NCBI RefSeq assembly: GCF_963678975.1
Contig: NC_089275.1
Location: forward strand, 37,796,819 to 37,860,818
Direction: 5' to 3'
Source: Dysidea avara
Taxonomy: Eukaryota; Porifera; Demospongiae; Dictyoceratida; Dysideidae
DNA length: 64,000 nt
How positions within the stretch are numbered: the first letter of the stretch is position 1; every line of letters begins with the position of its first letter. This document shows, piece after piece, positions 37,570 to 64,000 of the stretch. The translations under genes were made by a program, and so were the position numbers. The notes under the pieces were generated by a model. That model made no database searches and had not been told where the DNA came from. It was given only the letters and a program-made list of their open reading frames with translations.

Positions 37570-40108
37570 TTACTGGTCCTGTTGAATCACTTCCTGTTCA
37601 ATTTCATTGCAGACATCTTGCAAGTTGTCGTCCTGCCTGACTGCATCAAGTAACATCTCCCAAGTACTCTCAGTGGGTCTGTTATGCCATTCAGTAAGCA
37701 TCTCACAACAGCAGTTAAAGGCAACATCATTTTCTCTCTGTGCAATGGCGTTTATACTTGAACTATCAAACTGCAGATTAGGTGCAATGGTTCTCCAATG
37801 TGTGTCGATCTTTGGGACAACCAAAGTGAAGAGATGTTCTAATACAGGCTCTGTAAGAACAATACAACATGCACTGTTATTTAGGTGCTCGAGTTCTGTT
37901 GTGTACATATTTTTGTCACTGACTATATGTACATGGTTACACTGACGTATGAAGGGGTAATTGCCACTGGTATGTGTGTGTGTGTGTGTGCGTGTGTGTG
38001 TGTGGGCTGTGAATAACTGAACAGTGCAATATGGGGGAAATGAACCACACTATCTTAGTACACATACTTTCTGCTTTCTATAAATGCAGCCGGATTTAGT
38101 TCCAGCAGACATTTGACTCCTTGTACTGATTAAGTTACTCTTTATATCAACATTTAGCCAAATGCAGTAGCTTTTGTCAAGGAAAATTTCAGTCAATTAA
38201 ATGCAGTGATAAAATAGTTATGAAGTTCTCAAGTATGGATAAAATTTTATGTGTGAAAATTAAGGGTACCTTTTCACAAACCCAGTCACAAATGCATGTC
38301 CTACTTTTGTTCCTTGTCAGTTAACTATTAACAGAAATGTCCTCTTGCCAGACATATGCAGGTACAAAACATGCTAGACTTTAAATGAGTATATGCACAG
38401 TATGTGCGCCCGAAATATTAGGGGTGCAAGTAAAGAGTAGCCATTTGCTTCATTGTTCTGCCTGCTAATGTAACAAACACTCAGTTACACAAAAGCAATA
38501 CTTAGTCCATGCTTGTCCTTGGACTCTCTCATGTGTAGATAGTTACTGCAAGAAGCTCATTGATGTGCTAACCGTGTGATCAACACGGAAGAGAAAACAA
38601 CAAAGGATTTCATAATGCATACATGTGTATATGTGACCCACTGAGCAAAAACCAGCCATTTTCGCAAATTACTCAAATTCCATTTTATTGCTTCTCTGTT
38701 ATCTATATATATAGTGACAAAGGAGTGGACAGCCAAAGTTTCAGCCTTTTGTGATGAATAGTCTTGGAGTTATAGTGATAGACAGTTGAGACAGGAATAA
38801 ACTCGATATGTACAGCAACAATACAGCAAATAAACTACAGGCGCTTACTTAATCAATCATAACTCACAACTGAAACAAGCTACAAAGATGGTATTTGGCT
38901 CAGTCTGTTCACCGTGAACTGGCACATCAATCAAAGTATATAGTGTTTTCCCTGTGCGTCTCCGTGTGGACAAAGAAGAGGGCCATTTCAACAATTAAAT
39001 TACGATGGTACACTTTAATTGCATCATGCATAAACATCCATAACTCACGAACCATATGCTGTACAAACACAAAACAAAGATTTTCTTACTCCCAATGAAC
39101 AGGAGCATCAGGTGGTGTATAGGTTTTATTGATTTGAGCCTTTGATTAATACGTGCTAGGGCTGAGTGATACTGCCATTTTAGTATCACGATCGATACTA
39201 AAGCCACTATTCACGATACTGAATAGTTCACGATACTTATGAATAAGTCAATCATAGCTGCTACTACATAGTGTATTGCTCAGCATTCCTGCAGGAAGTC
39301 CTTACAGGTGATAGCAAACTAGCCACTATCATCCTTGTTTACAGTAACATAACACATGCTTTGAGGTTATGTTATGCTGTTCACACCTCTCTGCAGGGGA
39401 AACCAAGTGGGTGGACTTTATCACTTACAAGGATTCTTAGCTAAATACTGCATAAAAATGAACTTTTAATGACACAATGTACAGGCATGGTATCATGATA
39501 GTTAAATAACAAAATATTACGATATCAATACTTTCAAAATATCACAATATATCGCTAAAACGATAGTATCGCTCAGCCCTAATACGTGCATAAAATTTTC
39601 ATGTAGCACATGTATTTTTACCGTTTGTTTCAATACGTTGTAATAGCAAAATAGAATTTTGTGAAAATGGCCGGGTTTTCGCTCAGCGGGTCACATATGT
39701 TTTTGGTGAAAACATCTATTCTATATAATTATAGCATCACCACAATTGTTGATTGTACCAAATGTTGGCTGAAGGCAATTTACCAGTTCACTACTGTAGT
39801 AAAAATTAAATATAAATACCACATTTGGAGGACTTTTGAAGGCATAATGGAGACACTCAGTAACTTTTTTTTGGAAAAAAATGGAAACCTATATGGTCTC
39901 CATACACTACATGTAAGAACAGACATACAATTACACCTCACTTAGTGGCCACCTCTCCAGATAAGGAAAGGCTTATAATATCAGCAATGCTTAACATACT
40001 ATACTGCATGGCCTTGTCACTTTGTGAAGGTATCACTATAAGAAATTATGATAGACATACAGTACCTTGTAACAAGATATCTTCAGTTTGAGTTACTTGA
40101 ACCGCCAT
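37570..40108 (-). CDS. Gene C: Death-domain protein (2 exons)
   Basis: Exon 40108-40066 starts ATG and encodes MAVQVTQTEDILLQ with the phase-1 donor CAAG|GTACT. Exon 37850-37570 follows a CTTACAG acceptor in phase 1 and encodes a Death domain. Its pattern is EPVLEHLFTLVVPKIDTHWR, TIAPNLQFDSSSINAI, CCCEMLTEWHNRPTESTWEM and LLDAVR, with the conserved W of helix 2, EW in helix 5 and TW before the last helix. The frame stops at TAA, which lies inside the sequence CCA|GTAAGT, itself a strong donor. The product is ~107 residues, an adaptor-sized protein. It resembles the Death exon of gene B (HCNKIVSCCYATMKKWLEE...TWEKLINAL). Whether it continues into gene D by splicing is unresolved because of phase. 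Confidence 0.6.
37972..38003. repeat. (GT)n microsatellite
   Basis: About 16 GT dinucleotides with one GC interruption, in the gene C intron. Confidence 0.9.
38634..39697. mobile_element. TGTGAC-end element with nested hAT
   Basis: The left end TGTGACCCACTGAGCAAAAA matches the complement of the right end TTTTCGCTCAGCGGGTCACA, with AATGGC / GCCATT inside. The ~640-bp body is interrupted by 39157-39581. Related bodies occur at 49149-49786 and 59789-60411 (shared AAAGTTTCAGCCTT and CTACAGGCGCTTA-like blocks). Confidence 0.8.
39157..39581. mobile_element. hAT-like MITE (TAGGGCTGAGTGATACT ends)
   Basis: The left end TAGGGCTGAGTGATACT and the right end AGTATCGCTCAGCCCTA are inverted repeats. A perfect 8-bp duplication ATACGTGC lies at 39149-39156 and 39582-39589. 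It is 425 bp, non-coding, with subterminal ATCACGAT/ATCGATAC motifs. Confidence 0.9.
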
Positions 40109-43766: not shown

Positions 43767-45643
43767 TTATGACATATTACAATTTTGTGCGGCACTTGTG
43801 TTCCCTGAAAATGCTGACATTCCAGCAGAAATGAGATCATTCATATCAAGACCTGACTGCTGCAGTGGAAGTTGCATTATGGTGGATAGTATGTTTGGAT
43901 CACTCATCATTTCAGGCAGAAATTTTTGATAGAGTCCCATTGAGTCTTGCAGCATAGGAGTCAATACTTCAGTGTAACGACTACCAAACTTTTGTATTAT
44001 TTCAAGTTGTTTCTGTGTATCCTCTCTTGAAATTACCATCGCATACAACTCAGATCGCATAGTAATGTAAAGTTTAATTTGGACTGGCATGGGTTTCAAA
44101 TAACTAAAATAATAATTCAATTGGAGTCTTGTAGCTATAGGCACTTTATTGGATGTGCTAATAATGTCAATTAGTTCTTTCAGTAATTTCAGGTAACTGT
44201 CTAGCAATATGTTTATATAGGATATTGCTTGATCACCATGTCCACTGTTAAGAAATGTTACAGTTTTCTTGTACTTTTCTCTCAGCGTCAGGAATGTTTC
44301 CTTCTTCACTTGTGGAAGCCTTCTTGACACATCAGGAAAATCTTCAACACTTAGTTTTATAATAGCTTGAAGCATGAGTGGAATTGTTTTAATGTATATT
44401 GGAATGATAATGGAATCCACCATGTTGTATAAGTAAAACTTGCAGTGATCTGCATCCACTCGCATGCTTATAGACTCAAGGTTGCTTTGCATGTACTGCT
44501 GTACAAATGATGCATCTAACAGAAACTTTTGTAAAACTTCATTTACATCTTTGCTTTCTGAAAAACTCTCAAAGAAGTATTGCATAATTGCTGGATGAAT
44601 TTCAATGCCATGAGTGTCATCTGTATTAGCAAAAGTAGGTAGTGAAGTGTATGACAAAAGCCCCATGGACTGTAGTATGGAACAGCAGCAATCAACAATT
44701 TCTAAATTTCGTCCCCAAATACAAAACAGCAGTGATTTTGATGTAACTTTGCCAAATGTAAATGTTGTCGCAAGCTTTGCCAGTCTATGCAGGTCATCTT
44801 CATTTAAAAATACTAAACTCGCTCTAACACAGGCATTAATGGCATTCTCCAAGTTAGGTTCTATTGGATCAAATTCAGCTAGTCCACAATTACTCAGCTT
44901 TTTAAAGGTTTGCTTTATAATAGAAGCAGAAGACCGATTTGGCATTGCTTTGTGTTGCTGACCTAATTGTCCCCTGACAAGATTTAGTAGCAGTGGAGAC
45001 TTGTGTACACTCAATGCAAGTTCCGTAAGTTGCTCAAATGATGCAGCATCAAGCGGTTGAAATTCTGGTATTGTTAGGAATTCAACTGCTTCACGTTGGT
45101 CCATGCCTTTCACAGGAATCACATGTTTACAATTGATTGTAGTTGAAATGTCACTCTTGCGGGTGGTAAGAACAATTTTGCAACTTGCAAATGTATCAAT
45201 GTACACTTTAGCATCTTCCACTTCCCACACATCATCAATGATAACCAAAAGCTTATTAGCATGATTCTTGCATAGAGTATCAATCTCTTCAGACAAGCAA
45301 GTCACCAATTCTTCTTCAGTGACTTCCTTTTCTTCATCAGTTTCAGGTTGTGTCCATGGCAGTCCAGTTAGATTTAGATAAAGTTGTGAGAGTAAGTTGA
45401 AAGGCTTTCCTGGTACTGGTCCCAATTTTATCCAGAGAAAACCAGATAGGAAATTCATTTGAACAGGAGGCTGATGACACAACATTTTGGCCAGTGTAGA
45501 TTTTCCAATTCCTCCTGCTCCAATAAGTGCCACAGTCAGAGCAGCACTAGAATCAACTACTAGTGCATCTGTAACTGTTTGTAAAATGCTTTGCCGCTGG
45601 ATGTAGTACAATGGAAGTGGTGGTGGAGGTTGGTAGACAACAT
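43767..45643 (-). CDS. Gene B last exon: NB-ARC NTPase domain
   Basis: The acceptor TTGCACAACAG opens the exon in phase 1 (DVVYQPPPPLPLYY...). It contains the P-loop GAGGIGKST, Walker B KLLVIIDDVWE and RNBS-B CKIVLTTR. The winged-helix end has EIHPAIMQYF at the MHD position. A ~240-residue helical tail follows, ending in a Q/M-rich segment (LPLQQSGLDMNDLISAGMSA). No sensor repeats follow the NTPase. It is paralogous to 31299-33190; the same exon boundary precedes YQPPPPLP in B and YQQPPLLP in A. Confidence 0.9.
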
Positions 45644-48600
45644 CTGTTGTGCAAAACACATAATATAACTACAACTTATAATTGCGATGATGGTTGCATT
45701 GCACTACATAACTATGTGGGAAAATCCTACTTTGGCATGGTGGTAGAATGCCAATGTAGGGATATTTCCAAATAGATATACGTATGTGATGTAACCCTAC
45801 CATCAATCATATCCTCTTGTTGTATCATAGGAACCCTACTTCATTTCTAAATTAATAAAATTTTAATTGCACTAGTTTGTTGACTTGTTTTGATATAGCA
45901 TTGGTGCTATACACATGCGGCTGTGACTGCTTTATGTATCTCGATCTTGCTGCTTATTTCGAGTGAGCTATGCAATAGATTTGGGGGTGTGGTTCAATGC
46001 CTTGTCTTGTTTTCTACAGCAAAACTGCAGCTGATTGCAGCTAGATCATTTAGGGGCATGCATGGTGACATGTTCTGATTGTTTGAGGGTGTGGTCATAA
46101 TACAATCATTTGTTTATCAAGTAACAAGTGCAGCTACCGGTACCTACTCCATCTTAACAGTAGCTGAAGCACTTCAAATAGCTTCTAAATACAATCCTCG
46201 AATGAAAGTGTCAACATGGAAAGTTAATGCCTCCTCCTTACATGAAGAAGAAGACAACCATGCAATTCAAAGGCAAACTGTAGAAAGCAGACATTCTTTG
46301 GAACCAGAAAAGGCACATTCCACACGCGAGTTTGTAATTGTGGTGAGATGGTGGCCATATGCATGTGCTGCATCATTTGGCTTCTAGCCTTGCAACTGTG
46401 GTCAGGCAGGCAGGCAAGCTGGCACACCAAAATCAAGTTATGGCAGTTTTTAAAACAAAGTTCAATATTTGGCCTTCTGTAAGTGTTTTCTTGTTCTTTT
46501 TAACACATGCACTAAGACATTCCTGTAAGGCTACTTTTCATCATGTGTGACATTACTATGATGATTTTTAATGGCAGCATTTTGGTAGACGCCGTTCATA
46601 TTAGGAGGGAGCCCTATTAAATAGTACTGTACTGTTTGATTATTATAAGTACTTTAAACTTGTGCAGGCTCTATGCATGTACTTATTTATTTAGTAGCTA
46701 CGTATAACATCTCACCAATTTGGATCAGTTTCAGTGCATTGATTAGTTTCTCCCAAGTAGCATCGGTGTCTTCCTCAAGCCATTTCTTCATTGTCGCATA
46801 ACAGCAGGAAACAATTTTGTTGCAATGTGTAGCATACTTTACTTCAATACCATTAAGACTCGCACTATCTACTCCAAGTTCCCTGCCAATTTGTTTCCAA
46901 TATCTACCTTTGTCCTTAAGAAGCAATCTTTGGATGTATATTAGGTCAGGCCTTTTCCCTGTAAAAATTAAAGACACAGTGAAATATGTAGTGTTGTACT
47001 GTATACACCCAGTGTGCATTACAAGTGACAAAATATTTCATATAAAACCTTCTTTTTTAGAAAAATAAATTCAGCATTGTAATTGTCAACCAGTTTGTAA
47101 TAGGCTACAGTCAAGAGTAAAGTTACACAGTGCGTATAATGAATTACTGCAGTCATAATTTGTCTGGATTAGGATCCAGGATTCTGATCCACTATTTTGT
47201 AGTTCACACTTCATCAAATTACCCACATCTTTCAAATGAATGAATTGAAAGATGAAAATTTGATGTGCACAAAACAATATTCACATTCTTTACAGGTACA
47301 GAATTCTAGGTATGTAATTTCACAAAGAAACGATCACTTGCTATCTAAAGAGTAATCGGAAAAAACTGACAAAAGAACAAAACCTTCACTACCATTGACA
47401 CACGTAGTTTTACATAAAAGTCAAACATTACCTCTAACTTCTCCGCATGATGCAATATCATCTAAAGTCACCCATTCTATGTTCATCATCTTTTGTGCAA
47501 TACTCACTGTATCAGAGGTCCCTGAAATAGCAATTTACAATAATTATACACGTACCTATTGACACATACTCTATATTAAATCTGTATTCACAAGCATATA
47601 TCATACCGTAGAGTCGGGTTGTTAAGCACATGCATCTGTTAATTGCATATTATATGTTAAGCACATACACATTTCTGTAATTAACCATGGATGATAAGTG
47701 CACATGGGCATATGCGACGATACAGCTACACACAGCAAGTATTGTCAAGAAAAGCTGAGAGTACTGAACCATTAATGTCTTCTCAAGCACTTACGTCTCT
47801 GTTGAGGTATCCCTTTGCTATGCATATAGCAAATCAGCAATCTGGATAATGATAATTTGTTTATCACGAAGGATTTCACTCAGAAATGGAGTCAAATATT
47901 CTTACACACTGGCGTGGTGACTATTAACTACTCTCACAACGTAGTGATTCTGTGTTACACTCACCACAATTATTTATTAGGCATATGCGCCTAACAGATA
48001 CTATGATTTTTGCAAAAAGTTTTTTTCCAAAAATTATAAGCGCATGCGCTTAACAACCCGACTTTACGGTAACACTGAACCAATTAATAATAGTGCCAGA
48101 AATATAGGTTTAGTGGATGCCTGTATTTTTATCAAACCAGATCACATTCAGTTCTGATCCAGATTACTATATATTTGGATCAGTGTGTCATTTGGATTGG
48201 TGATTTTGACACCTATTTCTTACAAACTGTGTAATTCTGGAGAGATCGTGCCTACACTACCCTTGTGCATAACAAACTTAGAAATGTTAAAATCCATGAA
48301 AATGCCCAATGTATGAATACAAAATGGAGTCACTTTTACATACCTGTGTCTAATTGTCTTTGGCGAAACTGCATGAATTCCATTAAGGCAGTTCTTGACA
48401 ATGAGGCCACTATATATATAAAATCGTCATGTACATGTATACAGCACTCAGTACCATTTATAAAGATAAGAACACTGATTACCAATTGCACTGTGCCATA
48501 TAGTTTACACAACAGTGTTACAGTAATTACTTCTAAAGTGCACCACATTAACAGTGCTGCACAAAGAATTGGAAATTGGCAATGTATGAAAACAACAATC

Positions 48601-51600
48601 GATAGCATGTTTGGAAGGCAAGGTTTTCAGATCCTGTCACATGCAGCACAGTATTAAAAATGAGTATTACATACCACAAATGTTCATTTCTTCTGGAATT
48701 GTAACAGCGCCACTGGATCTGTAAAAGTCTACAATGTAAAATAAAATGTATGCATTAGCAAGATTAATACAACAGCTGAAAGGTACTACATGTATATATG
48801 TGACCGGATTTGCAAAAAGGTACCTTTTCCACACATTTGACATACCAGCAAACAAAATGTCATAACTGTTGACTCCTTGCACTGATTGACTTTCTGTTTG
48901 TATCAAAATGTAACCAACAAATGTAGGCATATTTATGGAAAATTGCAGACACATGCTTGCAATGATACAAAAGTTACAACATTTGGAAGTTGAAAAAATG
49001 GGTCAAATTTTATGTGTGAAAAAGGTACCTTTTTGCAAATCCGGTCACATATAATCATCATAGGGCAGACAGGGATGCCACATTACATATACGCACGTGC
49101 ATGTTTGTACCTGTGCATACATACATAGTAACACACCGAATAGGCATATGTGACTGAATTTTAGAAGACCGTCGATATACGCACATTTATCAAAATTCGT
49201 TTTATTGGTTCTTTGTTGTCTACAAGGGCAGAGGAATGGACTAGCTAAGTTTCAGCTTCATAAGTTAAACAGTGTGGGAAATACAGTAGTAGACAGCTGG
49301 ACGAGCGAATAAATCAATATGTACAGAAGACACCGAGAAAATAATCTACAGGCGCTTATACAAACCATCATAACTTACTGATACAATGGCGTATGGAGTT
49401 GAATTCTTGCTCATTGTGTGCACCATGAAGTTGTGAATCCACCAAGGTATAGTTTTTGCCGTAGGTATTCTTCTGTAATCCGGAAGGAAGGCAAAGTCAT
49501 TGAAGAAAGATCTTAGTAAATTCTTTTGTCACTGCAACGTAAACAAACATCTGTAACTCTGAAAACCACCTGTGTATGAAGATGAAACAAAGATTGTCCC
49601 TATGAATAGGGGAACACGATGATGCCCAGGATTTATCCACTGTAGTGCCAATTCACCGACCAGCACGGCAATAAAAACTTGCGTAAATTTTTTCTGGAGC
49701 TTGCATTTTATCCATTGTTATTAAATGCGTTTTATTATAAAAGTACTATTGTGCGTAGATTGACGGTTTTCTAAAATTATGTCACATATAGAGTTTATGT
49801 ACACAAGTACGGTTGCCACTCAAATGCATTGTTGTCTCACAAGAGTGTGAGCAATTAAAAAACTTGCTAATTAAAGGGTGTGGAACCTGTTTTGTTAGCG
49901 AGTATTCATCCTGTTTCGTTTGGGATGAATACTTGCGAGCAAAATGGGTCCCACTCCCTTTAATTAGCAACTTTTTAAATCGCTTGCACTCTTACGAGAT
50001 GACATTGAATATGAGCGGTACCGTATGTACAAAATGCATGTCCTTGTACAAAGTACTAGTTACTTAGTTTTCGGCTTTGCTCTGCTTGCTACACAGCCTT
50101 ACGCATGCAAAGCAATATGTAAAGTTCAGAATCAATCTACCTATGGTGTTTAGACTTACGGTAGTGAAGTATAGTTTTATTCTTATGAGGTAAACAACAC
50201 ATGAACCATTGACATACTGACACGTTTCACTGGGAAATGGGACACAATGACAGGCAAAGGTAAGTCCATGCTGCATGCAACATAGCTACTGTGGTTGACA
50301 AAATAGCATACAAAAAGTTATGTAGGCAACTTATTGGCATTTCTGGCTGTTCTGAAGGAAAGTTTGGGCTTGGGTACATCCAGCCAAATAAAATTTCAAG
50401 ACCTTGCGAAGAAAAGCTGAGGATGATATTGTTGGGAAAATGCAAGCCATCGTGATTTCTACAGTACAATACTGTCATTCTGTATGTCATACTGTAGGCA
50501 TCTACACACACACGCGCATTTATGTACATATCTATACACACATACAGTATTACACTTCTTACCTATCATATGATTCCCCAACTCATCATATTGTTCCTGT
50601 TTGACGATAACTTCAACAAAGTCAATAAATTTAGCAGCTCCTTTAGCTAATATAATAGCTTTGACTTCCTTCAGTAATAACTTCATTTGGGTGCTACACT
50701 CAGGGGGAGGATCATCACTATCCATAGAATTTCTTTCTGGGAAAAGTTTTAGTTCCACAAGCTTCACTTTAATAATGTCAGGGTCCATCATCATCATAAG
50801 ATCATAATGTTCATTGAAAGATGCCAATGCTGCTGCTTTGTCTTCTTCAGCGTATGCTGAAACATAAATGCAGTATGTATTTAAGAAAAGAGTATAAGAA
50901 GTATACTCACCATAAAATCCTCGACCATTAATCGATTTTTCAGCACTTGAGGCCGGTTGATTTTCTAAAAAAAGGATGCTAACACCATCACAGAACTACT
51001 TGTAAACAACACATGTTTAATTGCTCGTTCACTATGTTAGCATAACTTTTTCACTCTTTAACTAGAAGAATAATTTTACATGTTTGACAGAAATATGTAC
51101 GTACCTGTAATTACACTTTGCATGGCAGTAGTTGCTGTTGACATTATAGGCTCCAATCCTAGTTGTTTCATGAGTTGTGTCATCCATGTGGACTGCTGAT
51201 CACTTTCATCTGCAAAATACAACAATAACAAATAGTATACTAAACATTGCGGACTTTTAAGGGTGCTAGCGGGTTTTTGAAGCCATTCAAGGGACAACCC
51301 ACATAACCACATGCGGCTGTTACATCATAATTGGCAATATTACGCATACTCAAAGTATCTGTGTTAGGCGGCCGTGTTTTGCGCCAAAGAAATTGGCCAA
51401 GACGTTTGAAAATCATCACGAAAATGATCGTCTAGGCGCCCAAGAGTGACAATAGAGTGAATTATCCTGAAAGTAAGTGCTAGTTTTGATGACACGTGCG
51501 AACGCAAGCTGATTTGTAGCCAACACACGTTCTTCCTGTGTTTTCTCAAGTGATAGTGTACGCTGGTAAGTTATATTTGTAATTGTACGCCTTTTCTTAG

Positions 51601-54600
51601 GTAGAGACAATGTTCCAGTTGGATTTATCACCCAATACAAGACACTGACTGTGCGTTACGAGGCGTTACCCATCGAAGAGCAGGCTTGGCGACTCCACAA
51701 CCAACAGGAAGGTATCCCAGTGTGTAAAGAAAAGAACAAAAGCTTTTGTTTAGTTCATAACTTCATTTATAACTTGTTATTTGATAAAGTTGGCATTTGT
51801 GGTTTATAGAATTTGTTGTAATAACTGGTTGGTGTGCGCATGTTCTACACTGCATTGTAAAAGGCGATATTCTGGAATACACGATAGTGGGATCTCTACC
51901 AAACTTTTGGTGGACCATCAGTGATAAATTTGCAAACTTTTAGCGCATGGAATTATAATTGTTGTGATCCAGCACGAAGTTACAGGGCGCGGAAGTCAAA
52001 GTTTGCTCGTGGCACTCGCTCTTTGTTTTATAACTCAAGAAAGTACATATACCTACACTTGTATAATTGACAATTAAATTATTGAAACAGTTGGTTTTTT
52101 GGTGCATCGATTGACATACAAACTTTATAAAGTAATAGTTAGAATAGTTCTAGGATACACTTTACATAAGTATAAGAAAAAGAATCTCAAGCTAGACTAC
52201 TAGAGTAGGGACAAACTGCAATAAAAAGTACTGAAACAAGCTGGAGCGGATTGCAATGTCCAGATATGAATATCCCTATTGTTATATGGATACTCTACAA
52301 CCAAAATGCACAGTATGGATATTCACTTCTTATTGTAACTGGACATTACATACTATATACTCAGATACAGCATGTTTCAGTACTATTTATTGCAGCGCTA
52401 CATGTGACTGGATTTTGGAAAAACAATCCAAATCACACATTAGAAGTTTTGAGATTAATGGTTTTGATGATTTCAAGTCAGAGTAACTTGGCAAGGATAG
52501 TAAGAATGTGTATGAAAATTGCACAAAAGATGCATCAATCTTTTACTTTTCAGACCACTTCCAGTACTTATAGCTGCTTGTAGAGTTTCCCACCTAACAA
52601 GATAGAACATCTGAGCAGTTGGATAAGTAAGGTAGTATCACGAGTGCTCACAAGGGGATGGAGGGTGAGGGGTGGTGAGGTGAGCAAGAGATATACTTCA
52701 AAATGAAGGCAGACCACGATTGGAGTCCAGACACGAGATTACAGGGCTGTGCTGGCTTCTTTGAGACGGATTTGTAGCAAAATCAACAGAAAAGATGTCT
52801 GGCCAAGATTATCAGGTTATCTACCAGTAAACCACTGATTCTTGCTAAGCCAGACCCTCCACAAGGCCAGAAACCACCATTTGAGCTCTTCACACCACCC
52901 AGAAAAGACGTCTGTTAAAACTAGCGTTGAGTAACTAGCGTTGAGTAGTTTGAGTAGTACTGAGGGTAAAAAGTAGTACGATAGTGTAGCTATCCACTGG
53001 TGGTGTTAGTTTGATTTTGCCTGATGTGCAATTTGATTTGTAAAATCTGGTCATGTATTGTCTCTACTCTAGTTTAAAATTCCTAAATATTTTCTTATAT
53101 ATACTTGTTTGTGAACTTTTTTTTGTTTATTCATGACCTAACAATTAAAAAGCTAGCTACAGCCACATATGTAAATCTTATATTCATGAGTGAGATCATG
53201 ATCTGCAGCAATCATGAATCTAATAATTATATTCATAATGCACAAGGGCTGTCCACTTCATTCCAGCTGCATCTACTGATATGCACCAACAGCACCAACA
53301 GCACCAACAGCACCAACAGCACCAACAGCACCAACAGCACCAACAGCACCAACAGCACCAACAGCACCAACAGCACCAACAGCACCAACAGCACCAACGT
53401 ATGGCATAACCGCCATACTAGCTTACATGCAGCTATGCCAGACTAACTCACAACAATAGTCTACTTTCATACATATGTTTTATGAATACCATTCCACAAG
53501 CAGTCCCATTTCCTGATGGTAGATGACATCTTGTCTGGCAGCTCACTGAACTACACACACGTGTATTCCAATATGTTGGTGCAAGAACACTGTGAAACAT
53601 GCATACCCAGAGATCAAAGCCGTATTGTGCTATGGCCGCTCTAGTACATGGAAGGATAAAAGCAAGACAATAGTGCACATACAGGCTATACATATCAAAA
53701 TGCCAAAGGTTTCTACTTAAATGAATCCGAAGCATTTCTGGTAGCTGTAGTCACTTTTCCGCTATGCTTTCCTGAATGCATCGGACAGGCAGTCACTAGA
53801 AAATTCCATTAAATTTTTTTTGCAATTCTGTAACAACCTGACAAAAATGTTTAGAGCCGATCTGAAGGCACTTTTGGGCTAGATTTTACCCAGCCAATAC
53901 CGTAATATCATCATAAGGGGAAATCCAGGCAGGATATTTTATTCCAAGCCATGCCCACACCTTCATCGTCCCTACTATACAATACTATTGTACTGTGTGA
54001 TACGTACCATAAGATGGATTATCTTATGAGGTACAAATTTACACGAATACAATAATAAGCGACCTAAAATATATGCTTACAAGTACAAGGAATTCTAAAT
54101 TCAATCAGGAGTCATAGAAATATAAAGTAGTGAAACAAGGGAGGTCATCTATACTTGCAGATATTCAATAGTTATACCACCACAGCTGCGAGGGATTTTG
54201 CTGATATATATACACCCAAAGCCCGAGGGCCACAGGCCCAAGGGCTGCAGGTGTATATATTAGTAAACTCCTAATCAGTCATATATAAGTGATATATATC
54301 ACTCAGGGCACACTCACCTGATAGGTGAAAGAACTACACAGCACTCACCCCATTTGTTTTATACACTAGCATCTGATGATTGATTGTGGTTTCAATTATG
54401 TGGGCAAATAGCTCTCACAACATTATTACTACGTCAGTATCTTTCAACACATGCCGGGAACGATATTATTTCGTGGGCCACACCTATTCCTTTGTTGTCC
54501 CTAGTATACAGTTACTATCGTATTGTATGATATTGAGACACGTTATCAGCAATTAGCTCACATTTATTTTCAATAACTATCGGACTAAAGAGGTATGCTT

Positions 54601-57600
54601 CAGGACAAAGAAATTAAGTTCATATACTTTGTCTAGAAAATTTACACAAATTCTTTCTGACTGTGATTCTTTATCAGACACACATGTGCATGACATATGT
54701 TGTCTTTCAGTTCAAAAAATTCATGGTAGCTGACTACGTCAGCAGCTACAGTGACTGACAAGATCAGCAGGTATAGTTTGTAGTTGTTAACATACAAAGT
54801 GTTATTAATGCTTTCAAAGGCCATTTTATATAATTAAAACAAGCATTTCTAGGTTGTCACACCCATATTTCAAACTGACATGTTAAAATCACATTAGAGC
54901 AAAATCTCCTAACATATGTTATGTTGTTTAAAAGAATGAGGTGCATTTACAGTCTTTGTGCGCATAAGCTTTTAGTTTGCATCTAGAGGCAATGCAGTAC
55001 TTCCCACTACATAACTGATAACCTTGAGCACTGGTTTTTAATTCATATGTTACAGTACAGTAAACACACTTCTGCATATCATTGTATGGCAATGGCTATT
55101 CACTAGCCAAGCCATCATTGATGCTTGTACATGCAAAGTACAATGAAGATGTGTATCATCACCATCATGTACATACCATTTGATGGATTCATCATATTTC
55201 TCATCACACTGGAAAACATAGACCCCATAGCTTGTGTATAAGGATCAGCTAACTGGCTTTCAGCTAAGATAAAATATCAACATAGTATATACTTTTCAAT
55301 AATAATAATAATAATAATAATAATTATGTTTAATGTGCATTATATATGGTATGTGTGGTTGTGAAATCAAAGGTGGCAGCTGCATTACTGTTAAGCTTGC
55401 TATTAAAATTTATTGGTATTAAATCATAGCGCTTGGCCACCACTTTTGATTTCACAACGTTTTACACCCAGACTTTTGAAAGTTGCATTCTTTTTTTACA
55501 GCCTAGTTTGATTTGTGTGGATTTCACTTTTATGCATTTTAAACATCTCAAGCCAGCCATAAACTGGTTTTGGGGCTTGTTTTATCCAATGTCTTCTTAT
55601 CTACATACACAATGTGACTGGATTTGCAAAAAAAGAAGTCTTCCACACACATTCAATTTACCAATTTTGGTGATACATTACTTACAAGTGGAAGGAGCTA
55701 TTAGTTTGAAAGTTCGTAACTGGTGGGCCCCAGCATAGCTTAATGAACGGAGAAAAGTTCAGGTTATTTACACACTTTGTTACGGACTCTCAAGTTGATG
55801 AAATTGGATGTGTGTGTGGTCACAACAATGATGAATATGGACAACTGAAGTTACAATAGTATGGTATTGCAGATTTGTTTGACTATATTTTATTTATTAT
55901 TGTATTTAAATACCCAAGTTGGTTTTTTCCTTGTAACTCTGTAGATGTCTTTTAAATCACAAGAAAATTTGAGCTATGGTGGTTAACCTATACACAGACC
56001 AGTTTTCAAGTTACTTCCGTAAGTGGTTTACCCTGCATGTGTGACAAAAAAGCAGACTTTTCTCACAAATCATGAAAAATAGTTCTTTCTTCCTGGTAAT
56101 AAACCCACAGTGTAGTGCCCCAGTTATCTTGGCCACATGACACACTTGTAAAGACAAAAATCGCTAGTAAATAATAAAAATGGTACACTTGTTTCTGGGA
56201 GCATTAATTAGAGTATATACAGTATGTACATTTTTTTCCATGTCATTTCGAAGCACAGGCTAGGTAACTGGTGAGTTGCTTTGTTGAGTAATGACCCCAA
56301 CTCTGTATACGTGTACGTACCTGCACACACATAAATATTTTGCATTCAACATAATATACACATGTACGAGGGATACAGTACGTACGTACCTTGGGATGGA
56401 TTTGATGGATTTCCTGCCATACCAGCAAACAAAGACCCCATGGCTTGTGTAAATGGATCAGCTGACTGGCTCTCAGCTATATGTATGAATGTAAAATGAG
56501 TGTAAGGAATTTCAAAATTAACAGCTGCATTTATATGCTTGTAAGCGACAACATATACAAGAACCTAACCATAGGCGGTGGAAAGGGGGGGGTAGGGGCT
56601 TAAGCCCCTCCTCGGTCTGCTAAGCCCCTCAGAATGATATCACGCTGAAATTATCTTTCTTGGAGTGGGGCTGAAAACCGTGATAAATATCGAGATACTC
56701 TTTTAGAGCAGTCACAGTGTTAGAGCAGTGTGTAGCGAGCTATATAAGGATTTTTATGTAGTTTATCAGCTATAAGCGCGTAGCTGGTGAGGTGGGAAGC
56801 TATTGTCAGCTGGCTGTGACCTTTTTTTTTTTTGGTCTTACCTTACTAAACCAGACACAATGTAGTGACTCAGTTCATTTTGACCTTCCATAAGTATGGA
56901 TCCGCCCCTGGTCAGCCCCCCCTCATATCAACTACTTTCTCCGCCACTGAACCTAACTATGTTTCTATGCATGTAGATAAGTACATACAATAGCAAATCA
57001 TGAGATACACTGCATGTAGTTAAACACTACAACAAATTTTAAAACAAATAAAAAAAGGATAATAAAACAGAATTTTCAGTGGTGGTATTAAGTTACTTGA
57101 AGTAAAGCACGTAGGAAAAATCCTAGAAATAATTTCCAAAGCACAGAGTTTGTAACACAGTAATTTAGTAACTGATCAGTCATTAACACTTGATTCCTAT
57201 GTAGCTCTGTGCTTCCCATAGATTTCATTGCACAGTGGTTGGTTATCTGCATCAAGGGTGATTTTGGGGACAACGTCCCTTAATGATGAAACTCACAACA
57301 TAACAATAGTAGCTACATACATATGTAGGATGTTGTTTATTTTTAAGTTTCTGAGCTTCCAATACTGCAGCTGCAACCCCAGGTAAAATAATCCTGCAAG
57401 AATATTTGCAAGCCTAGATAATATTGTGATTTTACTGTATGTCTTGGATGAACATTTTTACATTGACAACACTGCCAACATCAAGTACTATGTGCTTTAG
57501 TTACACCCACAGTAACAGTAATTTATTACAACTTACATTGAGATGAATCTGTTGGATTCCCCATCATACCAGAGAACATAGATGCCATAGTTTGTGTAAA

Positions 57601-60600
57601 TGGATCAGCTGACTGGCTCTCACCTATCGATAGAACTTTTATGGTTACAGAAACAGCAATGTGCACATCAACTTAGTCACAAATTAATACGTTTCATAGT
57701 TAATACACATGTGATTATTTTCCTTTCTCACAGTATCAACATAAAAGCTTTGAACATCCTAAATCTATGGGGGACCAAGGTACTGAAATGTTTATTTTGT
57801 TTCAGTTGTCCCTTCGTTCCTGTTGTAACTTTTAACTTGTAATGAACTACTATACTGCAACAATGTAGGGTATGTTCTGATTGAGAATTGGGTGATTTGG
57901 TGGTGACTGATTGTGTCATCTTTTACTTTACCTTGATGAAAAAAGGTATGTGTAATTTAATGTATATATAGGCACAGAAGATTACTAGAAGTTAAAATAT
58001 GGTGAACAAACCTGCTATACATGTACTTGCTCACATAACTTAATATTGATGGAAAGCAATGATACCTAAATCAGACAGTAGAAATATATCTGTGATATAG
58101 CCTATTCGTAGACTTTTTAACACTGAATACAATGCTGCTAGTGATGTCATTCATGCAATACTGAAATTGCTTCAATTTACAGGTACTTAATAACAATACA
58201 GTATATGTGACCAGATTTTACAAAACCGATCCAAATTGCACATCAGGCAAAATCAAACTAACACCACCAGTAGATAGCTACACTATCATACTAGTAGTTT
58301 TGACACTCAGTACCACTCGAACTACTCGAGGCTGGTTTCAACAGACGTCTTTTCTGGGGTGTGTGTAGAGCTCGAATGGCGGTTTTAGGCCTTTTGAAGG
58401 ACTTGGCTTGGCAAGAATCAGTGGTTTACTGGTGGACAGCCTGACAATGTTGGCCAGACATTTTTTCTGTGGATTTTGCTACATATCAGTTACTAAGGTG
58501 CCAGTACAGTCCTGTAATCTCATCTCTGGACTCCAATCGTGGTCTGCCTCCATTTTGAGGTCTAACCCTTGCCCACCCCGCCACCCCCCACTCCTTTGTG
58601 AGCACTCGTGATACTATTTTGCTCATCCAACAGCTCAGATTTTCTATCTTATTTGGCAGGAAACTCTACAAACAGCTACAAGTACAGGAAGTGGTCTGAA
58701 AGGTAACAGATTGATGCATCTTTAGTGTAAATTTCATACACGTGCTTGCTATCCTTGGAGAGTTATGCTGGCTTGAATTCTAAACTGTTTATCTCGAAAT
58801 TTCTAATGTGCGAAATGGATGGTTTTTCCAAAATCCAGTCACATATGTATCTTTACAAACAATATACCTACAACAGGATTGAAATGGATCAGCAACACTG
58901 ACCCAGATGACTGACCTACAATAGTAGTCTGGGTCAGGATCTCACCTAGATGTGATCCATGTAAATTACAGTAGTGGAGTGTACTGAAACTTACTTTTGT
59001 GGAAATATTACATAATTGGTCCTGTGTTATACGCAACAAAGATTTTTTTGTAAAAGCGAAAGACAGATGTATAGATGCAGGGTATATGTTAACCAAACAG
59101 TAACACAGGAATGTTTACTCAAAGGTACTCTCATATGCAAAACTGATTCACTTGTAGCAATTTTCATACTGTATTAATGCTTCCCAATGAGTTACCACTG
59201 AAAGGTAGCAAGGATTGTATACAGATCATATGAAAATGGTTATACGCATGTCCTTGAGGAGTGTTATATATTATAGCACCGAACAATCAAAACTCTCTAA
59301 CCAAACAGTCATTGCTCTAATAGAGCAGTCATGAAACCTCATGTGTATTGCTTATACATTTATCTTCCTTTGAGTTTCTCGAACAGAATATATTCACCAG
59401 CAATGGTTTGTTTCAAAACATCTTGAGGAGATATGTTTCCATCATGTTCAAGTAAGATGACATAATCAATGCAAATAAGAATCTGGGTCAGACCCTAATG
59501 CTTTGTAGAATAGTTAGGCTTCAGGATTTTCTGGAATTTAGTATCTCAAAGGCCCTGTGCTGTGGCACCCAAGCAAAACAAGAGTGCTACTATAAGTACC
59601 ACTCTTGTTTTTTGTACTATCCAGTTAAATACCCATGTGTTGCTAATTAGGCAAAACAAAACAAGGGACCTATAGGATTTAGATCTCTGTGAGTATGTAG
59701 CCAATGAAATTTGACTACTAATTATCTTGCCATGGTCTAAAAAGTGGACAAGACCAGATAAAACATGATCCAGATGATCACTCTCATATGTGTCCCGGCT
59801 TAGCAAAAGAGTTTGCACAACTTCCGATTTTTTTTTAATTCTTAACTTTATCTGCAGTGTCCAAGGAATGGATCATCAAAGTTTCAGCCTTCTGTGGCGA
59901 GTAGTTTTGGAATTATAGCACTACACAGTAGGAAGAACAAAACAATCAATTTGTACAGCGACGATACTGAAAATAAACTACAGGCATTTACATTCACAAC
60001 CATGATATCTATTTGCATTAATGTTCAACATTGCAATTTGGCTTAAAATGTTCACCATGGATTAGCAAATCAACCAAAGTATAGCATTAGACCTGTAGAT
60101 ACTTACGCATATGGATATGAAGGCAGTTTAGAGAAATGATGACAATTTTGTTTACGTTTACCGCATCTTAAACAACTCACGTAACATGCATACCATTGGG
60201 GCTAAAGAAACAAAATGAAGATTTTCGAACTCTCCATGAGCAGGCAAATGAGATGGTGTATATTTTAAATCAATTTGAGTCTTGATTCTCTGAGTAATGG
60301 CCCGATAAAAACTTGCATATAATTCCTTTGTAGCATGCATAATTATACAAAGTTTTTATAAATTTCATTTTCTCATAACACATGCTTCTGGTTCTTGCTG
60401 AGATGGTCATATGTATTTTAATGCATTTGAGGGATGCCATTCGCTAGCACTTGCTTATATCCTGTAAAGTCAGGCATATACAGTACGTACATGTACACAG
60501 CAAAAATGAGGAAAGAAATGGACCATACATACAAAGAGCACACAAAATATTCTAAATGAGTTAGTCACTATACTTATGTCTTACTTTAAACTGTGTGTTA

Positions 60601-61019
60601 TACACTGACAATATTGACTGGTACTGTATGTATGTACCTTGTGATTGGTTTGCTAAATTTCCCATCATACCAGATAGCACAGACCCCATGGCTTGTGTAA
60701 ATTGCTGGCTCTCAGCTATAGTTATGCAAGAGCACTACGTTAATATCAACACTCACAATTACTTTTCTATTAAAACTACCTGAACTGCTGGTAGAGTTAC
60801 CTGCTCCACCAGTGAAGGCAGATAACCATTGTTCCATTCCCATCTGATTAACTGGTCCCATAGCCCGTGACATGACATCATCTGAAGTCATTGTCTCATC
60901 ACTATCATCATCAGCTATGTATAAGGTGAATTATGAATAAAATGCATATGTACATTTGTGTATCTCATGTCAGTAGTGGATTTATACTCATACATTAACG
61001 CACGCACGCACGCACGCAT

Positions 61020-61054
<35 letters not shown>

Positions 61055-64000
61055 CACAAAGCAAAATCATAACCTTAGCAACCATAACACAGTAATGTTA
61101 CACAGGAATACTGGGATGCCTGTGTATTCTAAAAAATTTGAAGGAATAAAAAAATTAACTCTTGATGAAATTTGGAAGATGATATTTGATAATTTTTATG
61201 TACATGTTACAACAGATGCTCAACAATGCTTATTGAAATGCTAAGCAGAAATTGGAGAAGAAATATTTGGTGAATTGAAATGAATCCACCATATTCAAAT
61301 TTCTATCCAAATTCATGGTAGTGAGGTTGGTATACATATACCTTTGTGAGCTTTAGGCTTACCACTTTGACTTGTAGCATTCACATTATTATGGGGAGTA
61401 TTGCTGGTAGCTTGGTTAGACAATGGATTTTGACTTGCTGTTTCATGTCCACTTGTATCTAGCTGTTGTTGTTGTTGTTGTTGTTGTTGTGGTTGACGCT
61501 GAGATTGTTGCTGTTGCTGCTGTTGTTGCTTTTGTTGTTGTTGCTGCTGCTGCTGTTGTGGTTGTACTGTCTGTAGATTTTCCACCACAGCTGTAAACAA
61601 GACAAATACAGTAGCTACCATCAATATGGTCTGTAAAACAGCCTTCATTTCAGATATAGCTTGCTTGCTTACGTGGGTGTGTGGCATATGCAAATACATA
61701 TACGTAGTACATACACACATTTTTTCAAACCAATTTCAGGAAACTATCATGCATCAGTCATTTATTTGGATTTAGGAAATTGGGGACAGTATTAGGGAAA
61801 TTTGGGATACAATGAGCTATATAGTATAACTTCAGTTATGACATTTATTGTTTTGGGAGTATCTAATAGTACATTTATATTCATTAGATTATACAAAGGA
61901 AGACCTACACTTCTGTAGATTTACGATTTTTTTTATGTTGGTACAGGTGTATTAGTGGTGAGTGATAATTATTTAGAGTTACTTGTGGGATGATCATATT
62001 TGTAAATAGGGCTTTGCAGTGGGTAAATATTGGCAAGTAGTGGAATGATAAATGTGATGATAGTAAATAGAGTGGGAGATTTGGGGTTAGTGATAGGGAT
62101 GTTTTTGTTATTGAATTAGCATGGGACATTGAATTATGAAGCATTAAATTGTATGGTAGAGAAGGATGTGGTAGTGTTGGAAGTAGTAGGATTGTGCTTA
62201 TTTTGGGGTGTGGTAGGGAAATCGGCACAACTAGGATTGGATACTTGATTGTCGGACGCAATAGTGGGCCCAACTCTGGTTTCAGCATTACTTCATGTTG
62301 CAACAGTGGTGACAGCGGGAGTATTTTTAAAAGTACTAGTTGTATTGTGGGCCCCCGAGTGATTTGCTTGTACACCCAAGCTTGAGGGCTGTCAGGTCTG
62401 AGAGCATGGGTGTACATATCAGGCACATTACAAGGGCACATGATACAACTGGTATGTGCTATGCCAATTGCAGGCTAAGAGTCTGCGAGCGGTTAACCAC
62501 CCAAGCCAATATGAGACCGATCACTGAATTTATTATATAGACCAACTTGTAAAATTTGATTATGGGACAGCAGCAAATAACCTTGTGACTACATTTGCTA
62601 ACATGAATGGGCAAGTCCTAAAGGTATCATGGAAAGTTCAATTAAGTGATTTTACAAGCATTTTAAAGCAGCTGCATCATTTTACCTATTTGCAACATTT
62701 ACTAAACATTTATAGGGGTAAGTTTCACTGTAGAGTGTTTATCTCATGTTACTCGAAAAGAGGACGTGGTTCGTATTCGAAAATGTGGTGAACCACTTGA
62801 GAATATGCTGTAGCACTAGTTCTCACATTAATCCAATGTTTCTCAACACTAGGCATGCATCTATTATGCAAGCATAATTTCAGGAATCATAGGTAGTTGA
62901 AAGAATTGGGAAATATTCCGGAATAATTGGATGAATTCTAGGGATAAATGGTGCAAAATTATGCAAAACTCGTTTAAATACACTACTGAAATAATTTAAG
63001 CATAAAAATGGTTGAAACGTTTGAGATACTCTAATAGAGCAGTCATTTACTCTAATAGAGCAGTCAACTTAGAGTCCATAATTCTACTATAGCAGTCAAC
63101 TTAGAGTCCATAATTCTACTATAGCAGTCACTTGTAAATCGTATTAATATGCTTATTATTTAGCACAAATTTCAGGAATAATTTTGTGAATAATAGGATA
63201 GATAGGGAATAATTCTGAGAATAATACGTAGGTGAATAAAAAAGAATTGCCAGAAAGAATAATTGGAAGATTTTGGAGCATAATAGACTTAAGCCTACTC
63301 AACTCATAGGATGGCAAGGATGACAAATCGCTTCCATCTGAGTGCTGTAGGATGCAAAATTGAATACATGACTTTTGTCACATGACCAAAAATAAATTCC
63401 CACAATTGATTTTGGCTTGAGTTTGTATATAAAGAAATTGGCGGTACTGTTCCCATATCAAGGCCATGGTACATTTACAATGTACCATAGCCAGCCAGGG
63501 TTTATAAGATATGTACCTACAATGTACCATAGCCAGCCAGGGTTTATAAGATATGTACCTACAATGTACCATAGCCAGCCAGGGTTTATAAGATATGTAC
63601 CCTGAAATTTGCCTTTGAAATTAGGTGGCTTCATGGCACATTTATAAACTCTGGATATTTGTTTGAGTGTTGTAATGTAAACTTGGGAGTAGGAGGGGTA
63701 TGAGGGAACTAGCCTATGTACATACATAAAAATATACTGTATGTACAAAGCTATGCAAACATTAACTTAACATTTCTATTAATAGAGTACTTACTGCATA
63801 ATATGCATATTGTATACTTAATTGTTTACAAGATTGAGACTGGGTTCAGACATCATCACTCACCCTTTCTAAGATTATCTAATACACTGGTTAGCTGTGC
63901 AGCATTTTTCAACAGTGACAATGATTCACAAAGATCTAAAATATCTGATTTACATGTCACTTGTTCAATAAGACACTCAAGTATTATCTGATTAGCAGCA
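43767..64000 (-). CDS. Gene B: CARD - polyQ - repeat exons - CARD - Death - NB-ARC protein, at least 15 exons, 5' incomplete
   Basis: Exons in transcript order: 64000-63864 (CARD end), 61590-61342 (polyQ), 60914-60801 (or to 60780), 60715-60638, 57623-57537, 56476-56390, 55263-55177, 51209-51105, 50964-50911, 50856-50563 (CARD), 48728-48675, 48409-48344, 47521-47432, 46958-46716 (Death), 45643-43767 (NB-ARC, stop TAA). Every border is AG/GT and every exon length is 3n, with phase 1 at both sides, so the chain reads open for ~1,200 residues. The architecture combines two CARDs, a Death domain and an APAF-1-like NTPase. By family knowledge this implies a cytosolic scaffold for caspase or immune signalling, triggered by oligomerisation. 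The 5' end lies outside the window. Small linker exons are supported by splice phase only, and alternative inclusion is possible. Confidence 0.72.
45715..46641. mobile_element. R3 family element, degenerate copy 5 (-)
   Basis: It begins with the arm fragment ACTTTGGCATGG...CCTACTTCATTTC and TTGCACTAGTTTG, as in the 20442-20719 hairpin. It continues through a body containing GTGACTGCTTTATGTATCTC and CAACTGTGGTCAGGCAGGCA, and ends AAATAGTACTGTACTGTTTG. It lies between the Death and NB-ARC exons of gene B. Confidence 0.5.
46716..46958 (-). CDS. Gene B exon: Death domain
   Basis: The acceptor AATTTTTACAG and donor AATTG|GTGAG give phase 1 on both sides. The 81 residues show the Death-domain pattern KRPDLIYIQRLLLKDKGRYW, KQIGRELGVDSASLNGIE, CCYATMKKWLEEDTDATWEK and LINALKLI, with the conserved W, LG, I, and W...TW positions. 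It is a homotypic interaction module, related to the Death exon at 37570-37850. Confidence 0.8.
47432..48728 (-). CDS. Gene B linker exons between CARD and Death domain
   Basis: There are three phase-1 mini-exons: 48728-48675 (DFYRSSGAVTIPEEMNIC), 48409-48344 (VASLSRTALMEFMQFRQRQL plus DT) and 47521-47432 (GTSDTVSIAQKMMNIEWVTL plus DDIASCGEVR). All have canonical borders and 3n lengths (54, 66, 90). No domain is recognised; they are probably interdomain spacers. Confidence 0.5.
47606..48069. mobile_element. TA-flanked inverted-repeat element
   Basis: The ends CCGTAGAGTCGGGTTGTTAA and TTAACAACCCGACTTTACGG, flanked by TA on both sides, continue into GCACATGC / GCATGCGC. It is 464 bp and non-coding, in a gene B intron. 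Confidence 0.75.
48799..49048. mobile_element. TGTGAC-end MITE, 250 bp
   Basis: The ends TGTGACCGGATTTGCAAAAA and TTTTTGCAAATCCGGTCACA are perfect inverted repeats, extended by GGTACCTTTT / AAAAGGTACC (approximately) and flanked by TATA. It matches 42988-43187 in its termini. Confidence 0.88.
49149..49786. mobile_element. TGTGAC-end element, 638 bp
   Basis: The ends TGTGACTGAATTTTAGAAGA and TTTTCTAAAATTATGTCACA are inverted repeats. The body shares blocks with 38634-39697 and 59789-60411 (AATATGTACAG..., CTACAGGCGCTTA). Confidence 0.75.
49797..50037. mobile_element. Fold-back element, ~240 bp
   Basis: It is one large imperfect palindrome. The arms include GTACGGTTGCCACTCAAATG / CATATGAGCGGTACCGTAC-like sequence, TTGCTAATTAAAGGGTGTGG / CCACTCCCTTTAATTAGCAA and GAGTATTCATCC / GGATGAATACTT. 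It is non-coding. Confidence 0.7.
50563..50964 (-). CDS. Gene B exons: linker and second CARD domain
   Basis: Exon 50964-50911 encodes ENQPASSAEKSINGRGFY. Exon 50856-50563 encodes AYAEEDKAAALASFNEHYDL, IKVKLVELKLFPERNSMD, TQMKLLLKEVKAIILAKGAA and FIDFVEVIVKQEQYDELGNH. The F-x-x-F(V)...L pattern at the end (KFIDFVEVIVKQEQYDEL) is typical of CARDs. Both exons are phase 1 on both sides (54 and 294 nt). Confidence 0.68.
51105..51209 (-). CDS. Gene B exon: divergent member of the repeat-exon series
   Basis: It encodes DESDQQSTWMTQLMKQLGLE plus PIMSTATTAMQSVIT, with the acceptor TTTTGCAG and donor TTACAG|GTAC, phase 1 on both sides. The D/A-ES-x-Q start and the TQxM core resemble the 55177-60715 repeat exons. 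Confidence 0.55.
52403..53054. mobile_element. TGTGAC-end element, ~650 bp, copy 1 of a pair
   Basis: It starts TGTGACTGGATTTTGGAAAA and ends TTTGTAAAATCTGGTCA. The whole sequence is the inverse of 58206-58843 (shared CATCAATCTTTTACTTTTCAG-like and CAACAGACGTC / GACGTCTG blocks). Confidence 0.75.
53283..53398. repeat. 9-bp minisatellite (CACCAACAG)n
   Basis: About 12.5 perfect copies of the unit GCACCAACA. It lies in a gene B intron inside an R3 copy. Because the period is a multiple of three, it creates a spurious Asn-Ser-Thr frame. Confidence 0.95.
54085..54531. mobile_element. R3 family element, short copy 7 (-)
   Basis: An arm with AATATAAAGTAGTGAAACAA is followed by a hairpin of the R4 type (TATATACACCCAAAGCCCGA / GGGCTGCAGGTGTATATATT). 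The end is TTGTTGTCCCTAGTATACAG with TACTATCGTATTGTATGA. Confidence 0.45.
55177..60715 (-). CDS. Gene B tandem repeat exons (four 78-87-nt exons, AESQ...FTQAMGS...GMMGNP)
   Basis: Exons 60715-60638, 57623-57537, 56476-56390 and 55263-55177 encode near-copies of one 26-29-residue unit: AESQQFTQAMGSVLSGMMGN, GESQSADPFTQTMASMFSGM, AESQSADPFTQAMGSLFAGM and AESQLADPYTQAMGSMFSSV, each ending NP/N-rich. All share the acceptor TATAG|CTGAGAGCCAG or close variants and phase 1 on both sides. They evidently arose by exon duplication. The unit is Met/Gly-rich, amphipathic and unrecognised. Exon 57623 ends T|GT instead of G|GT, changing the split residue. Confidence 0.7.
55340..56150. mobile_element. Degenerate composite element without minisatellite, with nested MITE
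   Basis: The left part resembles the fold-back of 2309-2635 (TGTGAAATCAAAGGTGGCAG / TGGCCACCACTTTTGATTTC, TTTTTTTACAGCC). The right part resembles its 3' unique region (AACCTATACACAGACCAGTT, TTCTTTCTTCCTGGTAATAA) and ends near CTTGGCCACATGACACACTT. A TGTGAC-end MITE (55612-55822) is inserted between. The minisatellite is missing. Confidence 0.5.
55612..55822. mobile_element. TGTGAC-end MITE, ~210 bp
   Basis: The ends TGTGACTGGATTTGCAAAAA and the degenerate GAAATTGGATGTGTGTGTGG plus TCAC pair imperfectly. It is similar to 1862-2049 in the inner CACACACATTCAATTT / AAATTGGATGTGTGTG arms. Confidence 0.5.
56580..56949. mobile_element. hAT-like MITE (CAGTGGCGGA-type ends)
   Basis: The left end is CATAGGCGGTGGAAAG and the right end CTTTCTCCGCCACTG. 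A perfect 8-bp duplication AACCTAAC lies at 56572-56579 and 56950-56957. It is 370 bp with GGGGCTTAAGCCCC near the left end. It contains one ACTCTTTTAGAGCAGTCAC motif. Confidence 0.88.
58206..58843. mobile_element. TGTGAC-end element, ~640 bp, copy 2 of a pair
   Basis: It starts TGTGACCAGATTTTACAAAA and ends TTTTTCCAAAATCCAGTCACA (last 20 bases). It is collinear in inverse orientation with 52403-53054 (CACTATCATACTAGTAGTTT / AAAAAGTAGTACGATAGTG). Confidence 0.82.
59789..60411. mobile_element. TGTGAC-type element, degenerate, ~620 bp
   Basis: The left end TGTGTCCCGGCTTAGCAAAA and the right end TTCTTGCTGAGATGGTCATA pair imperfectly. The body matches 38634-39697 (GGATCATCAAAGTTTCAGCC, AAATAAACTACAGGC, GTTCACCATGGA). 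Confidence 0.6.
60780..60914 (-). CDS. Gene B acidic linker exon with two possible donors
   Basis: It encodes ADDDSDETMTSDDVMSRAMG and PVNQMGMEQWLSAFTGGAG, phase 1 at both ends. Two in-phase donors 21 nt apart (GAGCAG|GTAAC at 60801, TTCAG|GTAGT at 60780) would add or remove seven residues (NSTSSSG). The sequence does not decide which is used. Confidence 0.55.
61001..61056. repeat. (ACGC)n microsatellite
   Basis: About 14 tetranucleotide copies with one T interruption, in a gene B intron. Confidence 0.95.
61342..61590 (-). CDS. Gene B polyglutamine linker exon
   Basis: The acceptor TTTACAG and donor ACAAAG|GTATAT give 249 nt, phase 1 on both sides. It encodes AVVENLQTVQP, then about 35 residues that are mostly Gln (CAA/CAG mixed), then LDTSGHETASQNPLSNQA, NVNATSQSGKPKAHK. 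Disordered and hydrophilic, it separates the first CARD from the repeat exons. Mixed codons suggest the tract is old rather than a recent pure triplet expansion. Confidence 0.65.
62850..63297. mobile_element. hAT-like element, TAGGCATG family, copy 3
   Basis: The ends TAGGCATGCATCTATTATGC and GCATAATAGACTTAAGCCTA are inverted repeats. The 8-bp flanks CTCAACAC / CTCAACTC are a one-mismatch duplication. The interior contains two ACTCTAATAGAGCAGTCA copies and a 39-bp direct duplication (AACTTAGAGTCCATAATTCT, 63068 and 63105). Confidence 0.75.
63477..63601. repeat. 42-bp tandem repeat, 3 copies
   Basis: The unit ACAATGTACCATAGCCAGCC plus AGGGTTTATAAGATATGTACCT starts at 63477, 63519 and 63561. 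Copies are nearly identical, so the array is recent. The period is a multiple of three, so frames stay open by chance. Confidence 0.95.
63864..64000 (-). CDS. Gene B first visible exon: CARD domain (3' part)
   Basis: The exon runs off the window's right edge and ends at the phase-1 donor AAAG|GTGAG. It encodes ANQIILECLIEQVTCKSDIL, DLCESLSLLKNAAQL and TSVLDNLRKG. It aligns directly with the CARD of gene A (NKMMLDCMIAKITCKEGLLD ... VSQLRTG), including the shared ITCK/VTCK and LDLC blocks. Confidence 0.72.

Follow-up and report, generated by a model that had tools for sequence, protein, structure and literature searches.

A sponge APAF-1-like NB-ARC protein with a Death domain, a probable CARD and a conserved C-terminal CaaX box

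What kind of protein is encoded by the long split gene that fills the last third of a 64,000-nucleotide stretch of the Dysidea avara genome (assembly GCF_963678975.1, contig NC_089275.1, positions 37,796,819 to 37,860,818; hereafter the window)? An initial annotation, made from the letters alone, had described fifteen exons on one strand assembling into a single protein with the order CARD-polyQ-repeat-CARD-Death-NB-ARC. When the chain was rebuilt from the window sequence, we obtained 15 minus-strand exons spanning 63999 to 43767. Joined, they give 1206 codons without an internal stop, closed by a TAA at 43769-43767; in a protein database search, the joined translation proved identical to residues 208-1413 of a 1413-residue database protein, P0091. 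The 207 upstream residues of P0091 fall beyond base 64000, outside the window; the acceptor of exon 1 also lies there, and the part of exon 1 inside the window encodes just the second half of a putative first CARD. The next database match, P0092 (1283 residues, also from Dysidea avara), is the closest full-length paralogue found. The features of the gene are as follows.

63864..63999, minus strand: exon 1 (5' part outside the window), second half of the putative first CARD-like domain, P0091 residues 208-253; 31/45 identical to P0092
61363..61590, minus strand: exon 2, polyglutamine-rich linker; 15/46 identical to P0092, 29 residues missing there
60780..60914, minus strand: exon 3, acidic Met/Gly-rich linker; 38/44 residues missing in P0092
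60638..60715, minus strand: exon 4, repeat exon copy 1; counterpart in P0092, 10/25 identical
57537..57623, minus strand: exon 5, repeat exon copy 2; no counterpart in P0092
56390..56476, minus strand: exon 6, repeat exon copy 3; no counterpart in P0092
55177..55263, minus strand: exon 7, repeat exon copy 4; no counterpart in P0092
51105..51209, minus strand: exon 8, Met-rich segment (exon join and P0092 comparison)
50911..50964, minus strand: exon 9, short linker (exon join and P0092 comparison)
50563..50856, minus strand: exon 10, probable CARD by predicted fold, P0091 residues 540-638; 62/89 identical to P0092
48675..48728, minus strand: exon 11, linker (exon join)
48344..48409, minus strand: exon 12, linker (exon join)
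47432..47521, minus strand: exon 13, well conserved stretch ahead of the Death domain; 23/29 identical to P0092
46716..46958, minus strand: exon 14, Death domain PF00531 (Pfam); 43/80 identical to P0092
43767..45643, minus strand: exon 15, NB-ARC, helical and winged-helix parts, helical C-terminal domain, tail and stop
45495..45521, minus strand: P-loop GAGGIGKST; G41, G44, G46 and K47 nearly invariant (alignment A5)
45225..45251, minus strand: Walker B, LLVIIDDVW (motif and conservation)
45159..45170, minus strand: LTTR motif (motif and conservation)
44586..44606, minus strand: EIH motif with His349, invariant in a 50-row alignment
43767..43781, minus strand: C-terminal CaaX box CNMS and stop codon (sequence, tail counts, tree)

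The Death domain and the APAF-1-like NTPase of the initial annotation were both borne out by Pfam. Exon 14 matches the Death family PF00531 with E 2.5e-7 (31.2 bits against a cut-off of 22.6; 26.3 bits in full-length P0091 and 25.8 in P0092), and its sequence also matches FADD (E 9.7e-4). The NB-ARC of exon 15 was found with E 4.6e-16 (59.3 bits, cut-off 23.5). P-loop, Walker B, TTR and MHD-position histidine are all intact, His349 of the EIH motif being what we take to be the STAND MHD histidine. The predicted structure of exon 15 shows an APAF-1-like fold of the switch and of the helical part that follows it, without WD40, and argues strongly for an APAF-1-like architecture. The absence of a WD40 or LRR sensor, as first described, is supported: neither family gave a match in P0091 at E <= 1, and the chain ends after the helical domain and tail. 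NACHT scored 14.3 bits in exon 15, below its cut-off of 26.7; with no LRR match in P0091, an NLR (NACHT-LRR) identity was rejected.

The oddest and most surprising feature of the gene, missed in the architecture first proposed, is a conserved CaaX box at its C terminus. The protein ends in NCNMS followed by the stop codon, the box CNMS having Cys at -4, an aliphatic residue at a2 and a permitted X. Among 34 close rows (P0001-P0032, P0091, P0092), Cys stands at -4 in 26 of the 27 with intact tails, the sole exception being P0017, which ends in CKISYT. Seven cut-tail rows (P0005, P0019, P0025, P0029, P0030, P0031, P0032), whose alignments end well before the C terminus of the query, were left out of this count, including P0005 despite a Cys at -4 in its truncated tail. 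Distant rows (P0033-P0090, P0093, P0094) have Cys at -4 in 1/60 (P0067, tail unaligned), a weak control because these tails were not filtered for completeness. Positions -5 to -15 of the tail differ nearly throughout between six rows close to the window gene and the remaining 21, whose identity to it is 35-38%. Position -4, by contrast, is Cys, and position -2 is Ile or Met in 23/27 rows; the chain closes with Ser or Met in 22/27, a range that fits farnesyltransferase.

For an IQ-TREE analysis, 64 rows were chosen from the 95 available for exon 15 (P0001-P0094 and the window's second NB-ARC exon), truncated and some distant ones being omitted. The 27 rows form a single branch (support 100/100) in this tree, whose 699-column alignment includes the four columns of the CaaX trait itself and in which long branches (P0026 and GENE2, among others) were flagged. 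The CaaX label needs two changes on the tree, which can be taken as a single gain plus a single loss. Of the final 32 residues, 31 have a predicted pLDDT < 50; the tail is therefore probably a flexible tether. We conclude that the CaaX box is conserved at the level of sequence; prenylation of the terminal cysteine is what we would infer from it. P0026, a deeply diverged relative of exon 15, still ends in a CaaX box, CLTQ; it is perhaps a nearby gene to P0095, the window's own exon 10 frame, both contigs being 1,682,593 bases long.

The claim of two CARDs fared unevenly. When the exon 10 model, with a pLDDT of only 64, was compared with known structures, CARDs occupied seven of the eight top rows after a VIA-align second look but did not come out on top in Foldseek, which returned 88 rows at E <= 10, none at E <= 0.001 and no CARD in the best 50 of the 88. 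Pfam gave no CARD match at E <= 10 for the candidate pieces (the first CARD-like region and exon 10) or for members of alignments A3 and A2, nor any at E <= 1 in full-length P0091, P0092, P0066 and P0045, negatives to be read with the fact that HMMER filters discard most weak matches. Profile searches against PDB sequences at E <= 10 returned three rows for alignment A3 and seven for A6 (both of the first CARD-like domain) and two for A2 (exon 10), with no death-fold names among them. A profile-profile comparison of the first CARD-like domain with exon 10 found no similarity (probability 0.2). Thus, of the three profiles that the initial annotation had proposed for the joined translation, Death and NB-ARC pass their Pfam cut-offs but CARD finds no match. 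From its predicted fold we consider exon 10, with moderate confidence, a probable CARD; the first CARD-like domain (P0091 residues ~155-255), which has neither a Pfam nor a PDB-sequence match, is a putative and unproven one. By eye, in the alignment, residues ~40-400 of P0066, another Dysidea avara NB-ARC protein, seem to hold three tandem copies resembling the first CARD-like domain; P0066 has no Pfam Death domain at E <= 1.

We favour, as rather likely, the reading that the gene is a Dysidea avara member of an APAF-1/CED-4-type STAND branch and that its product serves as a prenyl-anchored, oligomerising scaffold presenting CARD and Death at the membrane; its membrane localisation, oligomerisation, partners and function are what we infer. 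Farnesyltransferase would lipidate the terminal cysteine, and the flexible tail would keep the closed, ADP-bound protein at the membrane. The switch would then respond to a trigger, for which a partner protein or the membrane itself may be the sensor, by nucleotide exchange in the NB-ARC and by oligomerisation. This would cluster the CARD and Death domains, so that caspase and adaptor assembly could be nucleated at the membrane. A wider proposal is put forward tentatively, as one that may well prove wrong: Dysidea avara and the sources of the 27-row CaaX branch would use a prenyl-anchored apoptosome, an APAF-1-type switch with a farnesylated tail; in this gene CARD and Death would join caspase- and adaptor-type signalling at one surface, and the membrane would replace the WD40/LRR sensor in setting where and when the complex is assembled. 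If so, lipid-anchored death platforms would also be in use in an early-diverging animal, one branch of APAF-1-like proteins would have retained a prenylation box while combining CARD and Death in a single chain in this gene at the least, and there would be a testable case for how death-fold signalling branches became joined or separated.

Could the protein instead be an ordinary soluble APAF-1/CED-4-like NB-ARC protein, as in cnidarians, amphioxus and sea urchin, with an unprenylated CaaX-like tail and extra death folds acquired by domain shuffling? Such combinations have precedents. According to the accessible part of a 2007 paper (PMC2246300), Nematostella and amphioxus possess APAF-1 homologues bearing pairs of CARDs, homologues with death domains exist in amphioxus and sea urchin, and WD40 has occasionally been lost; for amphioxus, what is available of PMC2575513 adds further NB-ARC and NACHT proteins with shuffled domains. 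In the part seen of PMC6321704, 39 of 42 placozoan NACHT/NB-ARC genes are NB-ARC genes; across the set there are CARD or death-like domains, Death domains in two cases, and WD40 or TPR repeats. Several death folds on an NB-ARC are therefore not new, and the novelty argued in the initial annotation was partly mistaken: its premise of a single CARD in known APAF-1/CED-4 proteins is wrong in view of the CARD pairs of PMC2246300, as far as that source was accessible. What speaks against a soluble protein is the tail, in which the cysteine is kept almost without exception while the remaining positions diverge between the two subgroups. Under drift, a cysteine would hardly stay at this fixed distance of four residues from the stop, and the tree fits a single deep gain of the box. 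We therefore regard an ordinary soluble protein as unlikely.

It is far less likely still that the NB-ARC exon comes from a different gene than the death-fold exons, or that the two sets occur in alternative transcripts, and that the database model and the initial annotation both wrongly united them. The introns are long, and the metagenome relatives that were inspected look like single-exon open frames, as two genes might predict. Yet all 14 introns between the 15 exons have GT-AG borders and phase 1, as first annotated, the database model P0091 is identical to the join, and the model of the paralogue P0092 has the same module order at 60% identity. Judged from sampled non-coding stretches of the locus, the joint chance of all 14 upstream exons being open is ~10^-14, a figure that serves as a guide only, as the exons were chosen for openness; for this reason identity with P0091 is the better and decisive test. 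A chance exon chain was rejected on the consistent introns and this identity, and a bacterial or viral origin on the multi-exon structure and the Dysidea avara paralogue. Scans for related loci found none in viral contigs and six distant bacterial loci, which were not used.

The polyQ and repeat linkers of the initial annotation are indeed encoded in the gene but are not core architecture, since P0092 has a counterpart for just one of the four repeat exons and the polyQ shows no conservation. Exons 4 to 7 are four copies of a Met/Gly-rich unit of ~25-28 residues, with pairwise DNA identities of 74-83%; in their flanks, compared without gaps, 12 to 30 of 60 bases agree. Judged from the sequence comparison, exons 5-7 and the linker pieces missing in P0092 look like phase-symmetric exon gains or losses rather than core parts. 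Upstream of the Death exon, the segments best kept against P0092 are exons 13, 10 and 1. A nine-base tandem repeat (CACCAACAG type) was seen by reading the sequence of an intron at window ~53280-53410. The polyQ and Met-rich linkers could conceivably promote condensates, and together with the lack of a WD40/LRR match they might suggest an inhibitory or decoy scaffold that sequesters caspases or adaptors at the membrane instead of activating them, which we consider the least probable reading of all, the nucleotide-switch motifs being intact, conserved and needless in a passive decoy.

Other features surround the gene in the window. Pieces of a second NB-ARC gene lie on the opposite, plus strand (13872-14222, 18702-19049 and 31283-33190); they are two open frames with a CARD-like look, as in the main gene, and an NB-ARC exon (E 3.1e-18), without a CaaX box. 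Between the two NB-ARC genes, a Death-domain exon (PF00531, E 6e-7; 37570-38049, minus strand) apparently represents a separate gene. An open frame of 476 residues (1-1431, plus strand) enters from the window start and looks leucine-rich-repeat-like by eye; Pfam gave no match for it at E <= 0.1. The 17-base motif TGACTGCTCTATTAGAG occurs five times (17631, 23780, 59315, 63029 and 63050), none being expected from shuffles, and is probably a dispersed repeat.

How, then, does the protein compare with known systems? The Nematostella, amphioxus and sea urchin APAF-1 homologues resemble it in having several death folds on an NB-ARC and in sometimes missing WD40, but the accessible part of PMC2246300 describes neither a CaaX box nor a CARD and a Death domain that jointly precede a single NB-ARC. 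The NLRC and NLRD proteins of Dysidea avara, as presented in the available part of PMC12909245, come from the same species and also place CARD or DEATH on a STAND NTPase; they are, however, NACHT and LRR proteins with CARD or DEATH as separate categories, whereas the present one has NB-ARC and no LRR. That study covers NACHT genes, and its main text, so far as available, mentions NB-ARC once and CaaX or prenylation not at all. In the literature searched, mostly at the level of titles and abstract openings and with few subscription papers included, which leaves absence unproven, we found neither an animal NB-ARC protein ending in CaaX nor a single NB-ARC chain with both CARD and Death. Compared with the APAF-1/CED-4 family, the protein lacks a WD40 match, has Met/Gln-rich linkers and a C-terminal CaaX box, and carries its Death domain between the probable CARD of exon 10 and the NB-ARC. 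To our knowledge, the apoptosome scaffolds described in animals are soluble. CaaX prenylation is found in the guanylate-binding proteins hGBP1 and hGBP5. These are likewise immune NTPases with a CaaX tail, but they are dynamin-type GTPases without death folds and belong to another NTPase class.
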